Shown in pieces: positions 35,942 to 44,548 of a stretch of DNA of 64,000 nt. Within the stretch, counting starts at the first letter, position 1. The number at the start of each line of letters is the position of its first letter. The notes beneath the pieces were generated by a model that was not told the DNA's origin, ran no database searches, and was given only the letters and a program-made list of their open reading frames with translations. Source of the stretch: Halocalculus aciditolerans (lineage in GTDB: Archaea > Halobacteriota > Halobacteria > Halobacteriales > Halobacteriaceae); NCBI RefSeq assembly GCF_014647475.1, contig NZ_BMPG01000001.1, positions 124,001-188,000 on the forward strand. Reading direction: 5' to 3'. A program made the position numbers and the translations under genes.

Positions 35942-36796
35942 ATGGCAATCCGCGGTGAGCGCGTCGACGAGGACGTCGCACACGCGCCACAGGTCCCGCT
36001 CGACGGCCGGGACGCCGCGCTCCTCCTCGTCCCCCTTCTCGCGCTCACCGCTCTCTACTGCCTCCCGGACGCGCTCGTCCGCCCGCTCGCCCTCTCCCAC
36101 CTCAACCCCGAACCGTGGTCGTTCTACACCGCGCACTTCGTCCACTTCTCCCGCGGCCACTTCCTCAACGACGCCGCCGCCTACCTCCTCCTCGCCCCCA
36201 CCGCCTACCTCCTCTTCACGTGGGCCGACGACCGCGCGTTCTTCCGCCGCGCCTTCCTCACCGTCCTCCTCGCCTTCCCCGTCGCCCTCTCCGCCGTCGG
36301 CCTCGCCCTCCCCCGCCGCGTCGTCACCTACGGGTTCTCCGGGCTCGCGATGGCGCTCTTCGGCCTCGTCGGCGTCGCCGCCTTCCGCTACCTCGAAACC
36401 TGTCCCGGCGACATCGACCTCGGGCACGCCCCCGGCCTCTTCTTCGCCGCCACCACCGCCATCCCCCTCCTCGTCCTCCCGCACACGCCGACGGCGATGG
36501 CGCTCACCGCGGCGAGCGCGCTCCCCACCGCCTACTACACTCGCAGCACCGTCCGCGCCCTCCCCCGGGACGCCCGCCAGTCCATCGTCCACCGCCCCGG
36601 CGCGGCCGAACTCCCCGGGTTCGCCGCGTTCCTCGTCCTCGCCTCCCCCTTCGCCGCCTTCCCCCCGAACCCGTTCGCCGGCGCGGTCACTGTCGACATC
36701 TTCCTCCACTTCGTCGGATTCGCGCTCGGCTTCCTCGTACCCTACACCGCCCTCGTCACCCGCAAGTGCGCGCGACTCAGTCGCGAATCCGGTTGA
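35942..36796 (+). CDS. rhomboid-like intramembrane protein, paralogue 1
   Basis: 284-residue membrane protein with six to seven hydrophobic segments. Rhomboid landmarks are the TM2 histidines YTAHFVHFSRGHFLND, the serine motif YGFSGLAMALFG and the last histidine FLHFVGFALGF. At the position of the usual oxyanion Asn (HxxxN) it has Asp, with an Asn one residue earlier, so activity may be altered. It is clearly paralogous to the gene at 43715. The ATG at 35942 is chosen from the family-like beginning MAIRGERVDED; an AT-rich ACATATTTCTTG lies about 35 nt before. It overlaps the convergent DUF7344-like gene by 20 bp. Confidence 0.72.
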   Translation: MAIRGERVDEDVAHAPQVPLDGRDAALLLVPLLALTALYCLPDALVRPLALSHLNPEPWSFYTAHFVHFSRGHFLNDAAAYLLLAPTAYLLFTWADDRAFFRRAFLTVLLAFPVALSAVGLALPRRVVTYGFSGLAMALFGLVGVAAFRYLETCPGDIDLGHAPGLFFAATTAIPLLVLPHTPTAMALTAASALPTAYYTRSTVRALPRDARQSIVHRPGAAELPGFAAFLVLASPFAAFPPNPFAGAVTVDIFLHFVGFALGFLVPYTALVTRKCARLSRESG

Positions 36797-37322
36797 GAAT
36801 ACTCGAACCCTGCGTGTACGTCTGATAGACCGCGGACGCGAGGATGACCGCGAAGATGCAGACCGCCCACAGCTCGGCGGCGAGGCGCGTGATGCCGACG
36901 ACGTCGAGACTCGCCGCGGCGACGAGGAGGCTCCCGAGCACCGCGAGGCTTCCGTAGTACTCGCTCCACGCCAGCCCGTACTTCGGGACGACCTCCATGT
37001 AGACGTTCAGGTCGCCCGCGCGCTCCGCGAGCCGAATCTCGCCGTCCGTATCCTCCTCGACGACGTCCAGCGACTCCAGTTTGGGGATGTGCGTCTGCTG
37101 GAGGCTCACGTAGACGGACTGCCGGACGTCGCGCGGCGCGGGCGTCGCGCCCGACTCCCGGGACGCGATGCGCTCTGAGAGCTCGCGGAGCGTCACGCCC
37201 CCGCTCGCCTGGAGGATTTCGAGCGTCATCCGCCGTCGGTCGTTCCGCAGGACGTCGTGGATGTCGGACTGCTCCAGTCCCGTCCTCGACTCCTCGGCGT
37301 CGAGTGTCCCCAACCCACTCAT
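36777..37322 (-). CDS. DUF7344-like winged-helix regulator with C-terminal membrane segments
   Basis: 181-residue protein. The N-terminal part is a winged HTH (IHDVLRNDRRRMTLEILQASGGVTLRELSERIAS, about residues 22-60, then QTHIPKLESLDVVEED as wing). Two membrane segments follow near residues 125-165 (SLAVLGSLLVAAASL and LWAVCIFAVILASAVY). This wHTH-plus-TM layout is common in haloarchaea. The ATG at 37322 (MSGLGTLDAEE) is preferred over the upstream GTG/ATG. It is divergent from the surface-protein operon, so it may control it. Confidence 0.8.
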   Translation of the reverse strand: MSGLGTLDAEESRTGLEQSDIHDVLRNDRRRMTLEILQASGGVTLRELSERIASRESGATPAPRDVRQSVYVSLQQTHIPKLESLDVVEEDTDGEIRLAERAGDLNVYMEVVPKYGLAWSEYYGSLAVLGSLLVAAASLDVVGITRLAAELWAVCIFAVILASAVYQTYTQGSSILNRIRD

Positions 37323-37485
37323 CTGGTGATTACCTCGGTAGACTACCATTTCAACCTATCTGATTATTCCACTCGCGTTATCTCTCGTCGAGAGTAGTCA
37401 ACGAGACGGCCAAAACCCATTTAACCACTCGTTTAACGTGAAAACGGGACGTTAAGTAAGCCCTTCTGACTCGTTGGCCGAGTCG
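37323..37485. promoter_or_regulatory. shared control region between the DUF7344-like gene and the surface operon
   Basis: Holds an interrupted palindrome CTCTCG-T-CGAGAG (37382-37394), repeated TTTAAC/GTTAAG motifs (about 37421-37457) and a TATA-like CGTTAAGTAAG at 37450-37460, about 30 nt before the ATG at 37486. This is the AT-richest stretch of the locus and looks like an operator region. Confidence 0.5.
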
Positions 37486-40400
37486 ATGCACCGACCATCG
37501 ACACCGACGCGACGGACGACCGCCGTCCTGTTGAGCGCACTCGTCGTGCTCTCGACGTTCGGCATCGCCACCCCCGTCGCCGCCGACGCCGGCGGCGCGG
37601 GTAACGTCGCGTTCATCGGCGACACCGGATACAGTTCTGTCTCTGCCGCAATCGACGCCGCAGAGGCCGGAGATACAGTCGAAGTCGCGGACGGCAGCTA
37701 CGACGGCGTCCGCATCACGAAGGACGTCACCCTTCAGCCGCACGGCGACTACCGGCCGACGCTCACGAGCGACGGCGCGGCCGTCGTCCAACTCGAAGGA
37801 AGTGCGGATGGCGCGACCGTCCGCGGGTTCGAACTCGCGGGGAGCGCGACGCTCGGCGTCGAAATCCGCGCGAACGACGTCACCGTCGAGAACAACCACA
37901 TCACACTCGACGGCGGGAAGACCGGCGTCCAAGTGCAAGACGACGCTGACGCCGACACCGACACCGCGGCGATCGGCACCGAGATCATCGGGAACGAAAT
38001 CACGCTCACTGACGCGCTCGTTGGCGTCTCCGTCAACGGCGACGACACCGTGAAGGGAAACACCATCACGGGCGCGAGCCTCGAAGGCATCGGCTTCACC
38101 GGACGTGCGAACACCATCCAATCGAACACGTTCGAGGAGCTTGGTGACACACCGAGCATTCAGCTCTACAACGACCCCGCCTCCGCCAACGGCGCGTCCG
38201 GCGAGGTCGCTATCGCTAACGCACTCCTCGCCGACAACCCCGACGCGAGCAGTGTCGCGGTCTACGACACCGACCGCACGTACACGGGCGCAATCGTCTC
38301 CGACGGGACGACGTACGGCTCGCTCCAGCAGGCCGTGAACGCGGTCCCCGAGGAAGCCACGGTCACGATTACGGAAACCGGGACCTACGGCGGCTTCCTG
38401 CTCAGCACGCCGGGTGTCACGGTCACGAACGCCTCCGACGTCACGGCGACTATCGACCCGTCGCTCGGCACGGCGACTGACAGCCGCGTCGTCGACGTGC
38501 GCGCGGCCGACGCGACGATTCACGGCCTCACCGTCAAAGCCGGCGGCTACGGGAACGGGATCTCCGTGACGGCCGACGGCGTCACCGTCTCGAACAACGT
38601 CGTCACCGGCGACGACGCCACGACCGGCGTTCAGACGCACACCGGCACGACCGGCGCGACCATCGAACACAACCACGTCGACACGGTCAACGTCGGCGTC
38701 TCCCTCATCGGCGAGGGCCACACGGTGACGAACAACGTCATCGCCGGCGTCGAAACCGAAGGCGTCGGCATCACGAACACCGGCCACAGCCTCACGGAGA
38801 ACACGATTTCTACTGACGGCGTGCCCGGAATCGCCGTCTACAACGCCGTCCCCGCGACGCTGAACGAGGAAACGACGGCGAACGCGCAGGCCAAAGCGCT
38901 CCTCGACGCGAACGAGGTCGCCACGGTCGCGTTCAAGCAGGCCGGCGACACCTACGACGGCCGCATCGCCATCGACGGCACGTACTACCCGTCCGTTCAG
39001 GCCGCGCTCGACGCCGCCGAGGACGGCGACACCGTCGAACTCGCGCCCGGAGCGTACACGCTCGACTCCAGTCTCGAGATGGAGACGGCGGGCGTGACGC
39101 TCTCCGGCGCGGGCGAGGGCGAGACGACTATCGACGCGAGCGGTCTCGACCACTACGGCATCGACGTCCGCGAGAGCGTCACCATCGAGGACCTCACCGT
39201 CCTCGGCCCGAAAGCCGAGGAGGGCGACAGCAAGTGGGATAACTTCGGTATTCACGCCGGCAACGGCGAGGAGTACATCGACGTCACCGTCCGCGGCGTC
39301 ACGGTCACGGGCTCCGCCCTCACCGAACTCGACCTCATCGGTGTCGAGGGCGCGACCGTCGAGGACGTCACGCTCGACGGCCGGGACACGGCCGGCTCCG
39401 GCCTCGGGCTCAGCGACGCGAAGAACGTCTCTGTCTCCGGCATCGAAGTGACCGGGAACCAGTGGGGCGGCATCGCCGTCATGACGAACGGGCAGTACGA
39501 CCAGCCCGCGCTCACGAAGAACGTCTCCGTCTCCGGCGTCACGTTCTCCGGACCGGGCGCACCCATCTACCTCGACCCGAAGAAGGACAACGCACGCACG
39601 AACATCAAGGACCTCGACCTCGGACCGTACACGACGCAGGTCACCGCGAGCGACTACCGCGACGGTGACTTCGCGTGGTACTTCGCCGACACGCAGAACG
39701 CGTTCGACTTCTCGACCGCGCTCGTCTCCGACGACTTCGACGGCGAAGCGGTCCCGAACCACCCCGTCGTGAAGGACACCGAGAGCGGCGACTACCTCGT
39801 CACGCCCGGACTCAGCGTTCAGTCCGCCGTCGACGCGGCCGACGAGGGCGACACGGTCGACGTCCGTGCGGGCACGTACGACGAGCACGTCTCCGTCGAC
39901 GTCGCGAACCTCAACCTCACGACGAGCGCGGACGCCACCATCACGCGGGGCGTCTCGCTCGCGGCCGACGGGGCGACGCTCGCCGGGTTCACGGTCGAGC
40001 CCTCGAACTTCCACGGCGTCAGCCAGCCCGTCGGCGTCTACGTCCCCGCCGACGCGGGCGACGTCACCGTGAAGAACACCGTCTTCTCGGGCCCCGGCGT
40101 CGAGACGACCGCACGCGGCCTCCTCTTCGCCACGAACGGCGAGGGCACCGCGACGGTCTCCGGGAACGAGTTCACGGAGTGGTCCTCGGCGGTGTACGCT
40201 CCCGTGCAGGAGCTCACCGTCACCGGGAACGACTTCCACGACAACGCGTTCGCGCTCGGCGGCCTCGAAGCCGGCACGCCGACCGTGACCGCGAACGCCT
40301 TCACGAACAACGTCGAGGCGGTCGGCATCGGTCAGGCGACCGGCGTCGACCTCACTGAGAACACCTTCGAGAACAACGACCGCCACGTCAGGGACTACTC

Positions 40401-41976
40401 CGAACAGCCCGTCGACGTCCGCGCGGTCGCCGAGACCAACGACTTCGACGGCTGGGCCGCCGTCGCCGTCGACGACTCGGTCCAGCAGACGCTCTACGGC
40501 GACCTTCAAGCCGCCGTGGACGAAGCGAGCGCCGGGAACGCCGTCATCGTCGGCGGCACGCACACCACCGACGTCACGCTCGACGAGTCGCTGACGCTCG
40601 CGGGCGTCGACGACGCGACCATCGAGGGGTCGGTCGGCTTCCAGAAGAACTCCTTCGTCGACGACGCGACCGTCACCGGCCTCACCTTCACGGGCGACGG
40701 CACGGCGATTAACGCGAACAGCGCGGGTGACGACCTCACCGTGACGCACAACGACTTCGAGGGCGTCGCGAACGCGATGATTCACGGCGGCGAGGACAGC
40801 GGCCAGGACCACGTCAAGACGGGGTGGACGGTCTCGGAGAACACCGTCACTGACGCGGGGACGGCCTTCCGCCTCTGGAACCTCGGCGACCTCACCGTGG
40901 CGCAGAACGACTTCGAGCGGCTGTCCGGCGCGGGGGTCTCCCTCGTCGCCGTCGACGGCGCGCTCGTCGCGAACAACACCGTGACGGACACGACGAAGTC
41001 CGGCGTCTACGTCGACGGGCCGTTCATGGACGCCTTCGACACGGAGACGCGGGACGTCACGGTCAAGCACAACGTCTTCGACGCGGCCGGCGACGCGGAC
41101 ACGGAGTACGCGCAGGCCGCAGTGAGCACGGGCGCGAACCTCGCCGAGCGCGGCGAGGTCGGCGTCCACGCGAACAGCTTCCTGAACACGGAGACGTACG
41201 CGGTCTACGCCGACACCGGCGAGGGCGCGAGCGGCGCGCTGGACGCGACGCTGAACTGGTTCGGGCAGGCGTCCGGCCCGACGGCCGAACAGGTCGCCGG
41301 ACCGGTCTCCTACGACCCGTTCCTGACGAACACGCCGGAGAACGTCCCGGCGGACGTCGATGAGACCCAGCAGTTCGGTCACGACGTCGTGATTCCGGGC
41401 GACGGCGAGTTCCACTCCGTCGCCTTCCCGGCCGGCACCGAGCGGACGTTCGGTGAGGTCTTCGGGAACTTCGACGGCACGGTCTGGGCGTACGACGCCG
41501 AGAGCGGCGAGTGGGTGAACCCCGCCGCCGACGACCGTATCGACGCGCTCGACGCGGTGCTCGTGAAGTCTGACGACCGCGTCGAGGTCGACTTCGACTT
41601 CGCGGACGCGAACGGCGACGCGCCGGTCGCGCCCGCGGAAACCGACCTCCACGAGGGCTGGAACTTCGTCGGCGCGCCGATGACCGGCAGCGCGGAGTCG
41701 GCGTTCGCGGCGTCCACCGCGAGTCCCGCTCGCGTCGTCCAGGTCTACGCCGGCGCGACGAGCCTCCCGGACGGCTCCGGGACAGCGTTCGGCCAGTACA
41801 CCTTCGGGAGCGCGGCCGACAGCCCGGCTGTCAGCGGCTACACGGGCTACTGGGTCTACGTGAACGAGAACGGCACGCTCGCGGCGAACGGCCACCCGGG
41901 CATGACCGCGAGCGACGACGACCCCGCGCTCTCCACGCAGCACGGCGCGTTCACGACGGCGGAGGCGTCGGTCTGA
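37486..41976 (+). CDS. large secreted parallel beta-helix surface protein
   Basis: 1,496 residues. A Sec-type signal peptide is MHRPSTPTRRTTAVLLSALV... cut near VAADA. Five modules each open with a (L/V)QxAxDAAExGDTVEV-like pattern near residues 51, 279, 502, 778 and 1006 and run into NosD/PbH1-type right-handed beta-helix turns (many N/T/V rungs such as VENNHI, VSNNVV). The first modules look duplicated (ALLADNPDASSVAVYDTD / ALLDANEVATVAFKQAGD). The final 195 residues (from GDGEFHSVAFPAG) form a separate beta domain, with LHEGWNFVGAPMTG, common at the end of haloarchaeal surface proteins. There is no C-terminal membrane anchor. The ATG at 37486 is preferred to the TTG at 37474. A 4-nt gap leads to the anchored partner gene. 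Confidence 0.85.
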   Translation: MHRPSTPTRRTTAVLLSALVVLSTFGIATPVAADAGGAGNVAFIGDTGYSSVSAAIDAAEAGDTVEVADGSYDGVRITKDVTLQPHGDYRPTLTSDGAAVVQLEGSADGATVRGFELAGSATLGVEIRANDVTVENNHITLDGGKTGVQVQDDADADTDTAAIGTEIIGNEITLTDALVGVSVNGDDTVKGNTITGASLEGIGFTGRANTIQSNTFEELGDTPSIQLYNDPASANGASGEVAIANALLADNPDASSVAVYDTDRTYTGAIVSDGTTYGSLQQAVNAVPEEATVTITETGTYGGFLLSTPGVTVTNASDVTATIDPSLGTATDSRVVDVRAADATIHGLTVKAGGYGNGISVTADGVTVSNNVVTGDDATTGVQTHTGTTGATIEHNHVDTVNVGVSLIGEGHTVTNNVIAGVETEGVGITNTGHSLTENTISTDGVPGIAVYNAVPATLNEETTANAQAKALLDANEVATVAFKQAGDTYDGRIAIDGTYYPSVQAALDAAEDGDTVELAPGAYTLDSSLEMETAGVTLSGAGEGETTIDASGLDHYGIDVRESVTIEDLTVLGPKAEEGDSKWDNFGIHAGNGEEYIDVTVRGVTVTGSALTELDLIGVEGATVEDVTLDGRDTAGSGLGLSDAKNVSVSGIEVTGNQWGGIAVMTNGQYDQPALTKNVSVSGVTFSGPGAPIYLDPKKDNARTNIKDLDLGPYTTQVTASDYRDGDFAWYFADTQNAFDFSTALVSDDFDGEAVPNHPVVKDTESGDYLVTPGLSVQSAVDAADEGDTVDVRAGTYDEHVSVDVANLNLTTSADATITRGVSLAADGATLAGFTVEPSNFHGVSQPVGVYVPADAGDVTVKNTVFSGPGVETTARGLLFATNGEGTATVSGNEFTEWSSAVYAPVQELTVTGNDFHDNAFALGGLEAGTPTVTANAFTNNVEAVGIGQATGVDLTENTFENNDRHVRDYSEQPVDVRAVAETNDFDGWAAVAVDDSVQQTLYGDLQAAVDEASAGNAVIVGGTHTTDVTLDESLTLAGVDDATIEGSVGFQKNSFVDDATVTGLTFTGDGTAINANSAGDDLTVTHNDFEGVANAMIHGGEDSGQDHVKTGWTVSENTVTDAGTAFRLWNLGDLTVAQNDFERLSGAGVSLVAVDGALVANNTVTDTTKSGVYVDGPFMDAFDTETRDVTVKHNVFDAAGDADTEYAQAAVSTGANLAERGEVGVHANSFLNTETYAVYADTGEGASGALDATLNWFGQASGPTAEQVAGPVSYDPFLTNTPENVPADVDETQQFGHDVVIPGDGEFHSVAFPAGTERTFGEVFGNFDGTVWAYDAESGEWVNPAADDRIDALDAVLVKSDDRVEVDFDFADANGDAPVAPAETDLHEGWNFVGAPMTGSAESAFAASTASPARVVQVYAGATSLPDGSGTAFGQYTFGSAADSPAVSGYTGYWVYVNENGTLAANGHPGMTASDDDPALSTQHGAFTTAEASV

Positions 41977-41980
41977 GCCG

Positions 41981-43663
41981 ATGTCGGTCACCACACCCCG
42001 CGCGGCGCTCGTCGTCGCGCTCGTCGCCGTGGTCGTCGCCGGTCCGGTCGTCGGCACGGCGGCCGCGGCACCGCCGGAGCCGCCGGCGGCCTACCACGGG
42101 CAGGTCACCGTGAACGGCGACCCCGCGCCCGCGGGGCTGACGGTGGCCGCGCACTTCCACGGCGAGACGACGGACACGCTCGAAACGACGAGTGACGGCG
42201 CGTTCGGCGGGCCGGGCGCGTTCGACGGGAAGCTGAAGGTCCCCGGGAACGCCTCGACCGACGGCGATTCGGTGTCGTTCACGGTGAACGGCGTCGACGC
42301 CGACACCACGGTCTCGTGGTCGTCGGGCGCGAACGAGCAGGTCACGCTGAACGTCGAGGACTCGACCGCCCCCGACGCCGCGGTCTCGAACCCCGTCTCC
42401 GCGCCGGTTCCGGCGGGGACGACGGTGACGCTCGACGCGTCCGGCTCCACTGACGCGCTCGGCGTCGACGCCTACGCGTGGTCGCTCCCCGACGGCTCCA
42501 CGGCCAGCGGGCCGACCGCCGCGTACACGTTCGAGGACGCCGGCGAACACACGGTGGCCGTGACGGTCACGGACATCGCCGGGAACACCGCGACCGCCGA
42601 GACGACCGTCACCGTCGAGGCCGCCGACACCGGCAACGATGGCGGCGGTTCGGGCGGGAGCGACGACGGGCCGTCGACGCAGCCCGACGACTCGACGACG
42701 AACGAATCCGCGGCGAACGAATCCGAGGCGTCCGCGGGCGACGTCTCGCTCGCGGTCGACGCGAACGAGACGACGATTTCGGTGACGAACGCGTCCGCGA
42801 ACGCGGCGACGCGCATCGACATTCCGGAATCGAACGCGACCAGCACGGAGAACGCCTCGCTCACCGGGCTGAACGTCTCCACGACGACCGGCGCGAACGT
42901 CTCGCTCTCCGTCAGCGTCTCCGACCGCGCGCCCGCCGAGAACGGCTCGGCGGCCGACAGCGGCGGCGGGGACGCCCTCTCCTACATCTCCGTCGAGCAC
43001 GACGTCCCCGACGAGGAAATCGGCACCGTCGACTTCCGGTTCACCGTCTCCGAATCCCGGATGGCGGACCGCGGGACGGACGCCGACCGCGTGGTCCTCT
43101 ACCGGAACCACGACGACGCGTGGCAGCGCCTCGACACCCGACACGTCGGCACGGCGGACGGCACCGCGACCTTCGTCGCGACCAGCCCCGGTCTCTCCGT
43201 GTTCGCCGTGCGCTCCGGCCAACCCGACATCTCCGTGACTGACGCCGCGCTCGACGCGACGAACGTCACGGTCGGCGAGGCGGCGTCCGTCGCCGTCACC
43301 GTCACGAACGACGGGAGCGGCGCCGGGAACGCCACGCTCGCCCTCACCGCGAACGGCGACGCCGTCACCACGCGCACGGTGTCGGTCGACGCCGACGCGA
43401 CGACGAACGTCACGCTCGCCTTCACGCCCGAGAGCGCCGGCGAGTACGACGTCGCCGTCAACGGTACGGACGCCGGGACGCTCACCGCGAGCGCGCCCGC
43501 CACGACAACGACCGAATCGCCGTCCACCGACGACGCCGGGAACGCCGTCGGCGGCGACGCCCCGCGCGAGCAGTCCGGCTTCGACCTCTCCACGGTCGCC
43601 GTCACCGCGCTCGTCGCCGTCCTCGTCGTCGGCCTCTTCGCGCTCGCCCGCCGGCGAGTCTGA
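41981..43663 (+). CDS. anchored surface protein with PKD, PGF-pre-PGF and CARDB-like domains
   Basis: 560 residues. Signal peptide 1-30 (ALVVALVAVVVAGPVVGTAAAA). A small beta domain (GQVTVNGDPAPAGLTVAA), then a PKD domain about 130-213 (AGTTVTLDASGSTDA...YTFEDAGEHTVAVTVTD), a linker rich in Asn-glycosylation sequons (NES, NAT, NAS), a PGF-pre-PGF domain about 264-410 (VDFRFTVSESRMADRGTDADRV...SPGLSVFAVRSG), a CARDB-like domain about 415-506, and a tail SGFDLSTVAVTALVAVL...ARRRV. The tail is a GF motif, one TM and arginines, close to the PGF-CTERM sorting signal but with SGF in place of PGF. It is predicted to hold or display the beta-helix protein made just upstream. It precedes a rhomboid gene by 51 bp. 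Confidence 0.87.
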   Translation: MSVTTPRAALVVALVAVVVAGPVVGTAAAAPPEPPAAYHGQVTVNGDPAPAGLTVAAHFHGETTDTLETTSDGAFGGPGAFDGKLKVPGNASTDGDSVSFTVNGVDADTTVSWSSGANEQVTLNVEDSTAPDAAVSNPVSAPVPAGTTVTLDASGSTDALGVDAYAWSLPDGSTASGPTAAYTFEDAGEHTVAVTVTDIAGNTATAETTVTVEAADTGNDGGGSGGSDDGPSTQPDDSTTNESAANESEASAGDVSLAVDANETTISVTNASANAATRIDIPESNATSTENASLTGLNVSTTTGANVSLSVSVSDRAPAENGSAADSGGGDALSYISVEHDVPDEEIGTVDFRFTVSESRMADRGTDADRVVLYRNHDDAWQRLDTRHVGTADGTATFVATSPGLSVFAVRSGQPDISVTDAALDATNVTVGEAASVAVTVTNDGSGAGNATLALTANGDAVTTRTVSVDADATTNVTLAFTPESAGEYDVAVNGTDAGTLTASAPATTTTESPSTDDAGNAVGGDAPREQSGFDLSTVAVTALVAVLVVGLFALARRRV

Positions 43664-43714
43664 GACGCGATTCGGCCACCACTACTTATTCGCTCTCCCG
43701 AGTAGCGGGAGGCG

Positions 43715-44548
43715 ATGGACGACCGCCCGCACTCGTTTCTCACCGCCGTCCGCCGCCACACGCGGCCAGCGGACGCGCTCGCGCTCTCCGTCGTCCCACT
43801 CGTCCTCCTCGCCGTCTACGCCCTCCCCGCCGCGACGAAGGAACGCCTCGCGCTCTCCTACGCCGACCCCTCCGCGCTCTCCCTCTACACGATGCACTTC
43901 GTGCACTTCCGCCTCACACACCTCCTCACGAACCTCGTCAGCTACGCCATCGCCGCCTCCGTCGTCTTCCTCCTCTGCGCGCTCTCACGTCGCCGGAAGC
44001 GCTTCTACGCGACGCTCTGCGTCTTCCTCTTCGCCTTCCCGCTCGTCGTCTCCCTCCTGAACGTCGCGCTCGTCCGTCCCCGCCTCGGCTACGGCTTCTC
44101 CGGGCTCAACGTGGCCTTCTTCGGCTTCCTCCCCGTCGCCCTCCTCGGCTACGTCGGCGACCGCTTCACGACCGACGTCACGCTCGACCACGCCCCGCTC
44201 CTCTTCTTCCTCGGCGCGGGCACCATCGCCCTCTTCGCCGCCCCGAGGACGCTCCCCGGCTACACCGCCAGCAGCCTCGCCGGCGTCTCCTGTGCGCTCT
44301 ACGGCCGCTCCCTCCTCGACGACCTCACCGAACTCTCCCTCGCGGGCTTCCGCCGCGCGCTCGACCCCGCCGGCTACCTCGAACTCGCCGCGTTCGCCCT
44401 CACCGTCTTCGTCCTCTTCCCCTTCGCCGCCTTCCCCAACGACGTCCTCCACGAGGGCGTGCTCGTCAACGTCTACGTTCACCTCCTCGGCTACTGCCTC
44501 GGCTACATCGCGCCGTGGGTGACGTTCCGGGTCGTCGACCTCGACTGA
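43715..44548 (+). CDS. rhomboid-like intramembrane serine protease, paralogue 2
   Basis: 277 residues, six to seven membrane segments. The rhomboid catalytic set is complete: HFVHFRLTHLLTN (H and the HxxxN oxyanion Asn), YGFSGLNVAFFG (nucleophile Ser in GxSG) and YVHLLGYCLGY (catalytic His). It shares with paralogue 1 (35942) the blocks DHAPLLFFL and FPFAAFP. It is third in the surface operon, so its likely substrates are the TM tails of surface proteins such as the one encoded upstream. The ATG follows GGGAGGCG. It is convergent with serB. Confidence 0.8.
   Translation: MDDRPHSFLTAVRRHTRPADALALSVVPLVLLAVYALPAATKERLALSYADPSALSLYTMHFVHFRLTHLLTNLVSYAIAASVVFLLCALSRRRKRFYATLCVFLFAFPLVVSLLNVALVRPRLGYGFSGLNVAFFGFLPVALLGYVGDRFTTDVTLDHAPLLFFLGAGTIALFAAPRTLPGYTASSLAGVSCALYGRSLLDDLTELSLAGFRRALDPAGYLELAAFALTVFVLFPFAAFPNDVLHEGVLVNVYVHLLGYCLGYIAPWVTFRVVDLD

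Follow-up and report, generated by a model that had tools for sequence, protein, structure and literature searches.

We describe here a locus of the haloarchaeon Halocalculus aciditolerans that is probably a dedicated surface-display module, in which a co-encoded rhomboid would serve as a sortase-like processor of the C-terminal tail of a secreted partner protein; cleavage of this tail and re-anchoring on lipid are inferred. The tail belongs to a class that was found only in rhomboid-bearing genomes among the 391 searched, which points to an undescribed form of archaeal surface-protein processing.

Organization of the locus and its rhomboids

In the window (the whole stretch of 64,000 nucleotides analysed), genes for a beta-helix surface protein, an anchored partner and the rhomboid RH2 follow one another with gaps of 4 nt and 51 nt (Table 1). 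The original prediction had given this order, and its coordinates and both gaps are exact. The three genes that it grouped as one unit are present, but it overlooked a second rhomboid of the same family, RH1, and a gene for a DUF7344 protein. A single scan of the genome contigs yielded one locus.

Table 1. Features of the surface-protein locus, in window positions
Feature	Position	Strand	Description
RH1, second family rhomboid	35942-36796	+	ORF open from 35810; HxxxD replaces HxxxN
DUF7344 winged-helix protein	36777-37349	-	PF24035 89.3 bits; two C-terminal TM segments; divergent from beta-helix gene
Beta-helix surface protein	37486-41976	+	1496 aa; signal peptide; Beta_helix/NosD
Anchored partner	41981-43663	+	560 aa; signal peptide, PKD, TIGR04213, Ig/CARDB-like domain, E-x-x-G-F tail
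C-terminal sorting tail APREQSGFDLSTVAVTALVAVLVVGLFALARRRV	43559-43660	+	Proposed rhomboid substrate; tail-profile match
RH2 rhomboid	43715-44548	+	277 aa, multi-TM; HxxxN, GFSG, HLLG motifs

The first protein is a right-handed beta-helix protein by its Pfam matches (Beta_helix, 7.7e-38; NosD, 4.6e-23) and has no C-terminal transmembrane (TM) segment, as had been claimed when it was described as unanchored. Its partner matches TIGR04213 (PGF-pre-PGF) with 43.7 bits, the cut-off being 28, and ends in ...REQSGFDLSTVAVTALVAVLVVGLFALARRRV, with a TM segment and then RRR. The C-terminal 'GWNFVGAP...GYWVY' domain of the beta-helix protein recurs at L049, L231, L196, L176 and L180, with an anchored partner adjoining or near, and the partner N-terminal domain ('AYHGQVTVNGDPAPAG') is common to the partners at L049, L231, L196, L176 and L167; at L049, L231, L196 and L176 the two domains recur together in neighbouring genes. 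The full combination of beta-helix protein, anchored partner and rhomboid is found again at L049, L167 and L176, and weakly at L086. At L049, which comes from another family, genes of metY-metX and serB-serA type flank the module as they do in the window. Two anchored proteins with an identical EPAGLG tail lie beside one rhomboid at both L167 and L176, and at L043 the beta-helix and an EPGGFD tail are fused in one polypeptide, encoded convergently with the rhomboid.

Judged by its motifs and its predicted structure, RH2 is a real rhomboid with a conserved catalytic dyad. In an alignment of the family (57 rows, one of them truncated), the Ser of GxSG is present in 56/57, the TM6 His in 57/57, the TM2 His in 55/57 and the Asn in 54/57. 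An AF2 model of RH2 (pLDDT 82.2, pTM 0.83) retrieved GlpG as all of its top 29 matches in a fold search of the PDB, at probabilities of 0.93-1.00 but with E values of only 0.03 or weaker; searching the PDB by sequence, with the family profile as query, retrieved no rhomboid. Scores against the Pfam Rhomboid model (PF01694) were 11 (RH2) and 19.7 bits, under the gathering score of 22.6. The original prediction had likened the enzyme to rhombosortase and looked to the model TIGR03902 for a check, but neither enzyme reaches its cut-off of 84 bits: RH2 scores 18.9-20.3 and RH1 35-35.5 bits. Rhombosortases are marked by a His at position +4 of the catalytic Ser (SGMLH), where GlpG has Tyr (Haft and Varghese, PMC3237569). 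This position is Val in RH2 (SGLNV) and mostly Met, also Ala, in the family. Given the conserved motifs and the GlpG fold, yet a low TIGR03902 score and no diagnostic His, we regard RH2 as a rhomboid and rule it out as a TIGR03902 rhombosortase.

In a sample spanning the phylum, strong members of the family (above about 140 bits) were confined to Halobacteria, and matches outside the class stayed below 90 bits. RH2 is basal in the tree of this haloarchaeal family. RH1, which is 34% identical to RH2 and keeps the catalytic Ser and His, groups with the rhomboid of L086 (support 97/84) and not with RH2, and it is therefore not a recent duplicate of RH2. It sits downstream of a metX-like gene, and no anchored surface protein adjoins it. 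The genome encodes two other rhomboids over the Pfam cut-off, at C2:848845 (108 bits) and C2:101358 (37 bits); together with RH1 these could also act on the tail, which speaks against a reading specific to RH2.

A tail class that accompanies the rhomboid family

An adjacent C-terminally anchored secreted protein is found at 40/51 family rhomboid loci compared with 6/479 control genes, based on gene calls made in this analysis; two or three of the 40 are not surface proteins, an example being the DUF7344 neighbour of RH1. The neighbours of the rhomboid thus do not vary freely; free variation is the outcome that the original prediction had named as refuting it. Convergent pairs of rhomboid and anchored-protein genes (L043, L061, L073, L075 and L035) indicate that adjacency does not reflect operon inheritance alone. 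The adjacent anchored protein is missing at about 11/51 family rhomboids, for example at the Halobacterium loci L004 and L037. At three Halobacterium loci (L004, L036 and L037) the family rhomboid lies beside a DUF7344 gene without an adjacent surface protein, in a similar serB synteny; these rhomboids are possibly remnants or possibly have another substrate.

The tails linked to rhomboids consist of E-x-[SAG]-G-[FIL] (EQSGF in the window), a hydrophobic stretch and R. The motif is free of gaps in the alignment of adjacent tails, where E is invariant and G and R almost so, and many tails have GI or GL at the motif end. The motif E..G[FILV] is present in 33/45 adjacent anchored proteins versus 15/102 others (Fisher 7e-12), and PGF in 1/45 versus 27/102. 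Adjacent tails at L034, L035, L061 and L086 lack the E-x-x-G motif; those at L034, L035 and L061 belong to giant surface proteins that adjoin the rhomboid.

Using a profile built from 27 rhomboid-adjacent tails, we searched 391 Halobacteria genomes and scored the best 19 candidates in each. All 93 tail matches at E<=1e-6 among these candidates (93/93) fell in the 126/391 genomes that carry a strong family rhomboid, so the co-occurrence of rhomboid and GF-type tails that had been put forward for examination in other haloarchaea is borne out. Most matches (75/93) lie within 2.5 kb of a family rhomboid, and the window tail is matched at 43562-43657 (E=6.6e-10). Among the 18 distant matches, those with retrieved neighbourhoods have no nearby rhomboid except a truncated one at a contig end (L217); these distant tails, too, occur in genomes with a family rhomboid, in a many-to-one relation. 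At L231 and L235, a large unanchored surface protein adjoins an anchored partner with an E-x-x-G tail, and the rhomboid is encoded only elsewhere in the genome. A weaker profile match in a rhomboid-free genome (L234) is a PGF tail. Some caution is needed: the profile was trained on rhomboid-adjacent tails, and the informative part of the result is the absence of the tail from the other 265 genomes. Moreover, genus g9 contributes many matches, so that the tests of co-occurrence are not phylogenetically independent. The single 36-aa tail used as a query found only itself.

What may process the tail

The tail had been described as a near-miss PGF-CTERM, and it is indeed not a PGF-CTERM: it is absent from the TIGR04126 list of its own whole genome even at E<=10. 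The description nevertheless understates what we find, which is a separate and recurrent tail class. No PGF-CTERM match was obtained for any of 39 rhomboid-adjacent proteins (0/39), although 29 of them carry PGF-pre-PGF (TIGR04213). GlyGly-CTERM did not match the window tail protein at E<=10, nor the 39 adjacent proteins at E<=0.01. The genome does encode archaeosortase A (ArtA; C4:100671-101504, 274.9 bits), together with 14 PGF-CTERM proteins over the cut-off for it to serve, and its presence makes the specificity directly testable. Among the best 19 candidates scored in this genome, no E-x-x-G tail other than that of the window reached E<=1e-6. The window tail can be set against that of one of these 14 proteins, which is TafF-like (C2:263463-264530, L249): it combines TIGR04213 with a PGF-CTERM tail, and its locus, a fimbria-like cluster with a SipW-type peptidase and DUF5305-like and DUF7344-like genes, encodes no rhomboid. 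TIGR04213 itself was rejected as a rhomboid-specific mark, as it occurs in many proteins that end in a PGF tail and lack a rhomboid; of about 60 TIGR04213 proteins sampled elsewhere, the PGF-tailed ones had none nearby. The original proposal that the rhomboid, rather than archaeosortase, handles the tail is thus supported by the missing TIGR04126 match, by neighbour conservation and by co-occurrence; cleavage has not been shown.

In the arrangement that we favour, a large secreted protein, here the beta-helix protein, would be made together with an anchored partner ending in a tripartite tail, which would insert into the membrane N-out/C-in. The co-encoded rhomboid may then recognise E-x-x-G-[FIL] at the outer membrane face and cut at or just after the Gly. 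After the cut, the partner would be either transferred to lipid, as rhombosortase appears to do, or released, and the unanchored beta-helix protein would stay on the cell by way of the partner. The divergently encoded, membrane-attached DUF7344 protein is probably a regulator of module expression, regulation again being inferred. Cleavage, the cut site, the fate of the product and partner binding are likewise inferences made without biochemistry. By analogy to VesB, we propose that the cut would fall behind the Gly of EQSG; in VesB, rhombosortase uncovers the second of the two Gly residues of GG, and attachment of a glycerophosphoethanolamine moiety follows (PMC6219818).

Rhomboids classically release the ectodomains of type I membrane proteins. 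It is possible, if on balance unlikely, that the rhomboid sheds the partner and the beta-helix protein into the medium or biofilm by cutting the tail, without any lipid attachment, and no lipid-modifying gene is seen at the locus. However, with its three conserved parts and its near-invariant Glu and Gly, the tail looks like a sorting signal of the GlyGly-CTERM kind, in which the Gly is lipid-conjugated after exposure by rhombosortase (PMC6219818). That the tail is a relaxed form of PGF handled by ArtA, the rhomboid being incidental, appears very unlikely to us: ArtA is present and the window tail retains G-F, but neither this tail nor those of the 39 adjacent proteins are recognised as PGF-CTERM, many tails have GI or GL, and the tails track the rhomboid. 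According to the title of a paper cited in PMC7157517, permutation of PGF blocks processing by ArtA.

We also see little room for the DUF7344 protein as the true substrate, with regulated intramembrane proteolysis of this membrane-bound winged-helix protein controlling the module. A DUF7344 gene does lie within 4 genes of 31/54 family rhomboids, always on the opposite strand (3/578 genes in control loci without a rhomboid), and the Halobacterium loci L004 and L037 pair it with a rhomboid in the absence of a surface gene. Yet the DNA-binding domain precedes the two TM segments, which makes the protein a less likely substrate; from its sequence, only the second segment is predicted to be N-out, and a cut there would not free the DNA-binding domain. 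Nor would this reading predict the co-occurrence of tail and rhomboid. Hardly better placed is the idea of a rhomboid that serves as a quality-control protease of the membrane or as an assembly factor and has no more than its regulation in common with surface proteins. According to PMC11985538, loss of a rhomboid in Haloferax volcanii alters the cell surface broadly and some bacterial rhomboids clear orphan membrane proteins, which would fit; that a specific tail motif is restricted to genomes with a rhomboid, and that some gene pairs are convergent, would be left unexplained.

Building on the preferred reading of a rhomboid that processes the tail of its anchored neighbour, we tentatively put forward a second haloarchaeal sortase system, based on a rhomboid, whose evolution would have run parallel to that of archaeosortase A and of bacterial rhombosortase. 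E-x-x-G-[FIL] tails would be cut, and the new C-terminal Gly would be moved to an archaeal lipid, for the display of fimbrial anchors and two-partner surface proteins; the type of tail, and not the genome, would determine which enzyme acts. If true, archaea would have a second way of processing surface proteins at the C-terminus, and it would be linked to fimbriae of the Taf-like kind and to large beta-helix proteins. Which proteins archaeal rhomboids cleave in nature is not settled, and PMC11985538 lists the identification of these substrates as future work. Enzyme, substrate and motif are here named from co-occurrence.

Comparison with known systems

The original prediction knew of no described haloarchaeal system of this composition, and our literature searches found no account of a pairing between a rhomboid and an E-x-x-G tail. 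Rho1 and Rho2 of Haloferax volcanii are likewise haloarchaeal rhomboids that affect the cell surface, but no C-terminal tail substrate is described for them in those parts of the source that we could consult. Many family rhomboids lie in clusters that resemble Taf fimbrial clusters (NCBIfam NF052520-NF052523), with a TafF-like or DUF1102 anchored protein, a SipW-type signal peptidase and DUF5305. The window locus differs in having no fimbrial subunits, SipW or DUF5305, and Taf models are not among the NCBIfam matches of the window proteins. Curated TafF, which comes from genus g11, was rejected as a general substrate because the g11 tails lack the motif; most of these proteins have neither an E-x-x-G tail nor an intact rhomboid.

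With the rhombosortase/GlyGly-CTERM system (TIGR03902; Vibrio, Shewanella), the haloarchaeal family shares the rhomboid fold and Ser/His dyad, a dedicated tripartite tail with Gly directly before the hydrophobic helix, and co-occurrence of enzyme and tail, many-to-one in some genomes. Rhombosortase differs in the His at +4 and the GG motif, for which the haloarchaeal family has Met, Val or Ala and E-x-x-G-[FIL]; the archaeal enzyme, moreover, is usually encoded adjacent to the tail protein and has no link to type II secretion. Archaeosortase A and PGF-CTERM, also haloarchaeal, similarly combine secreted proteins with a tripartite C-terminal tail, sometimes with TIGR04213 upstream, but the enzyme is unrelated, and the rhomboid-linked tails are distinguished by a Glu at -3 and often by GI or GL.
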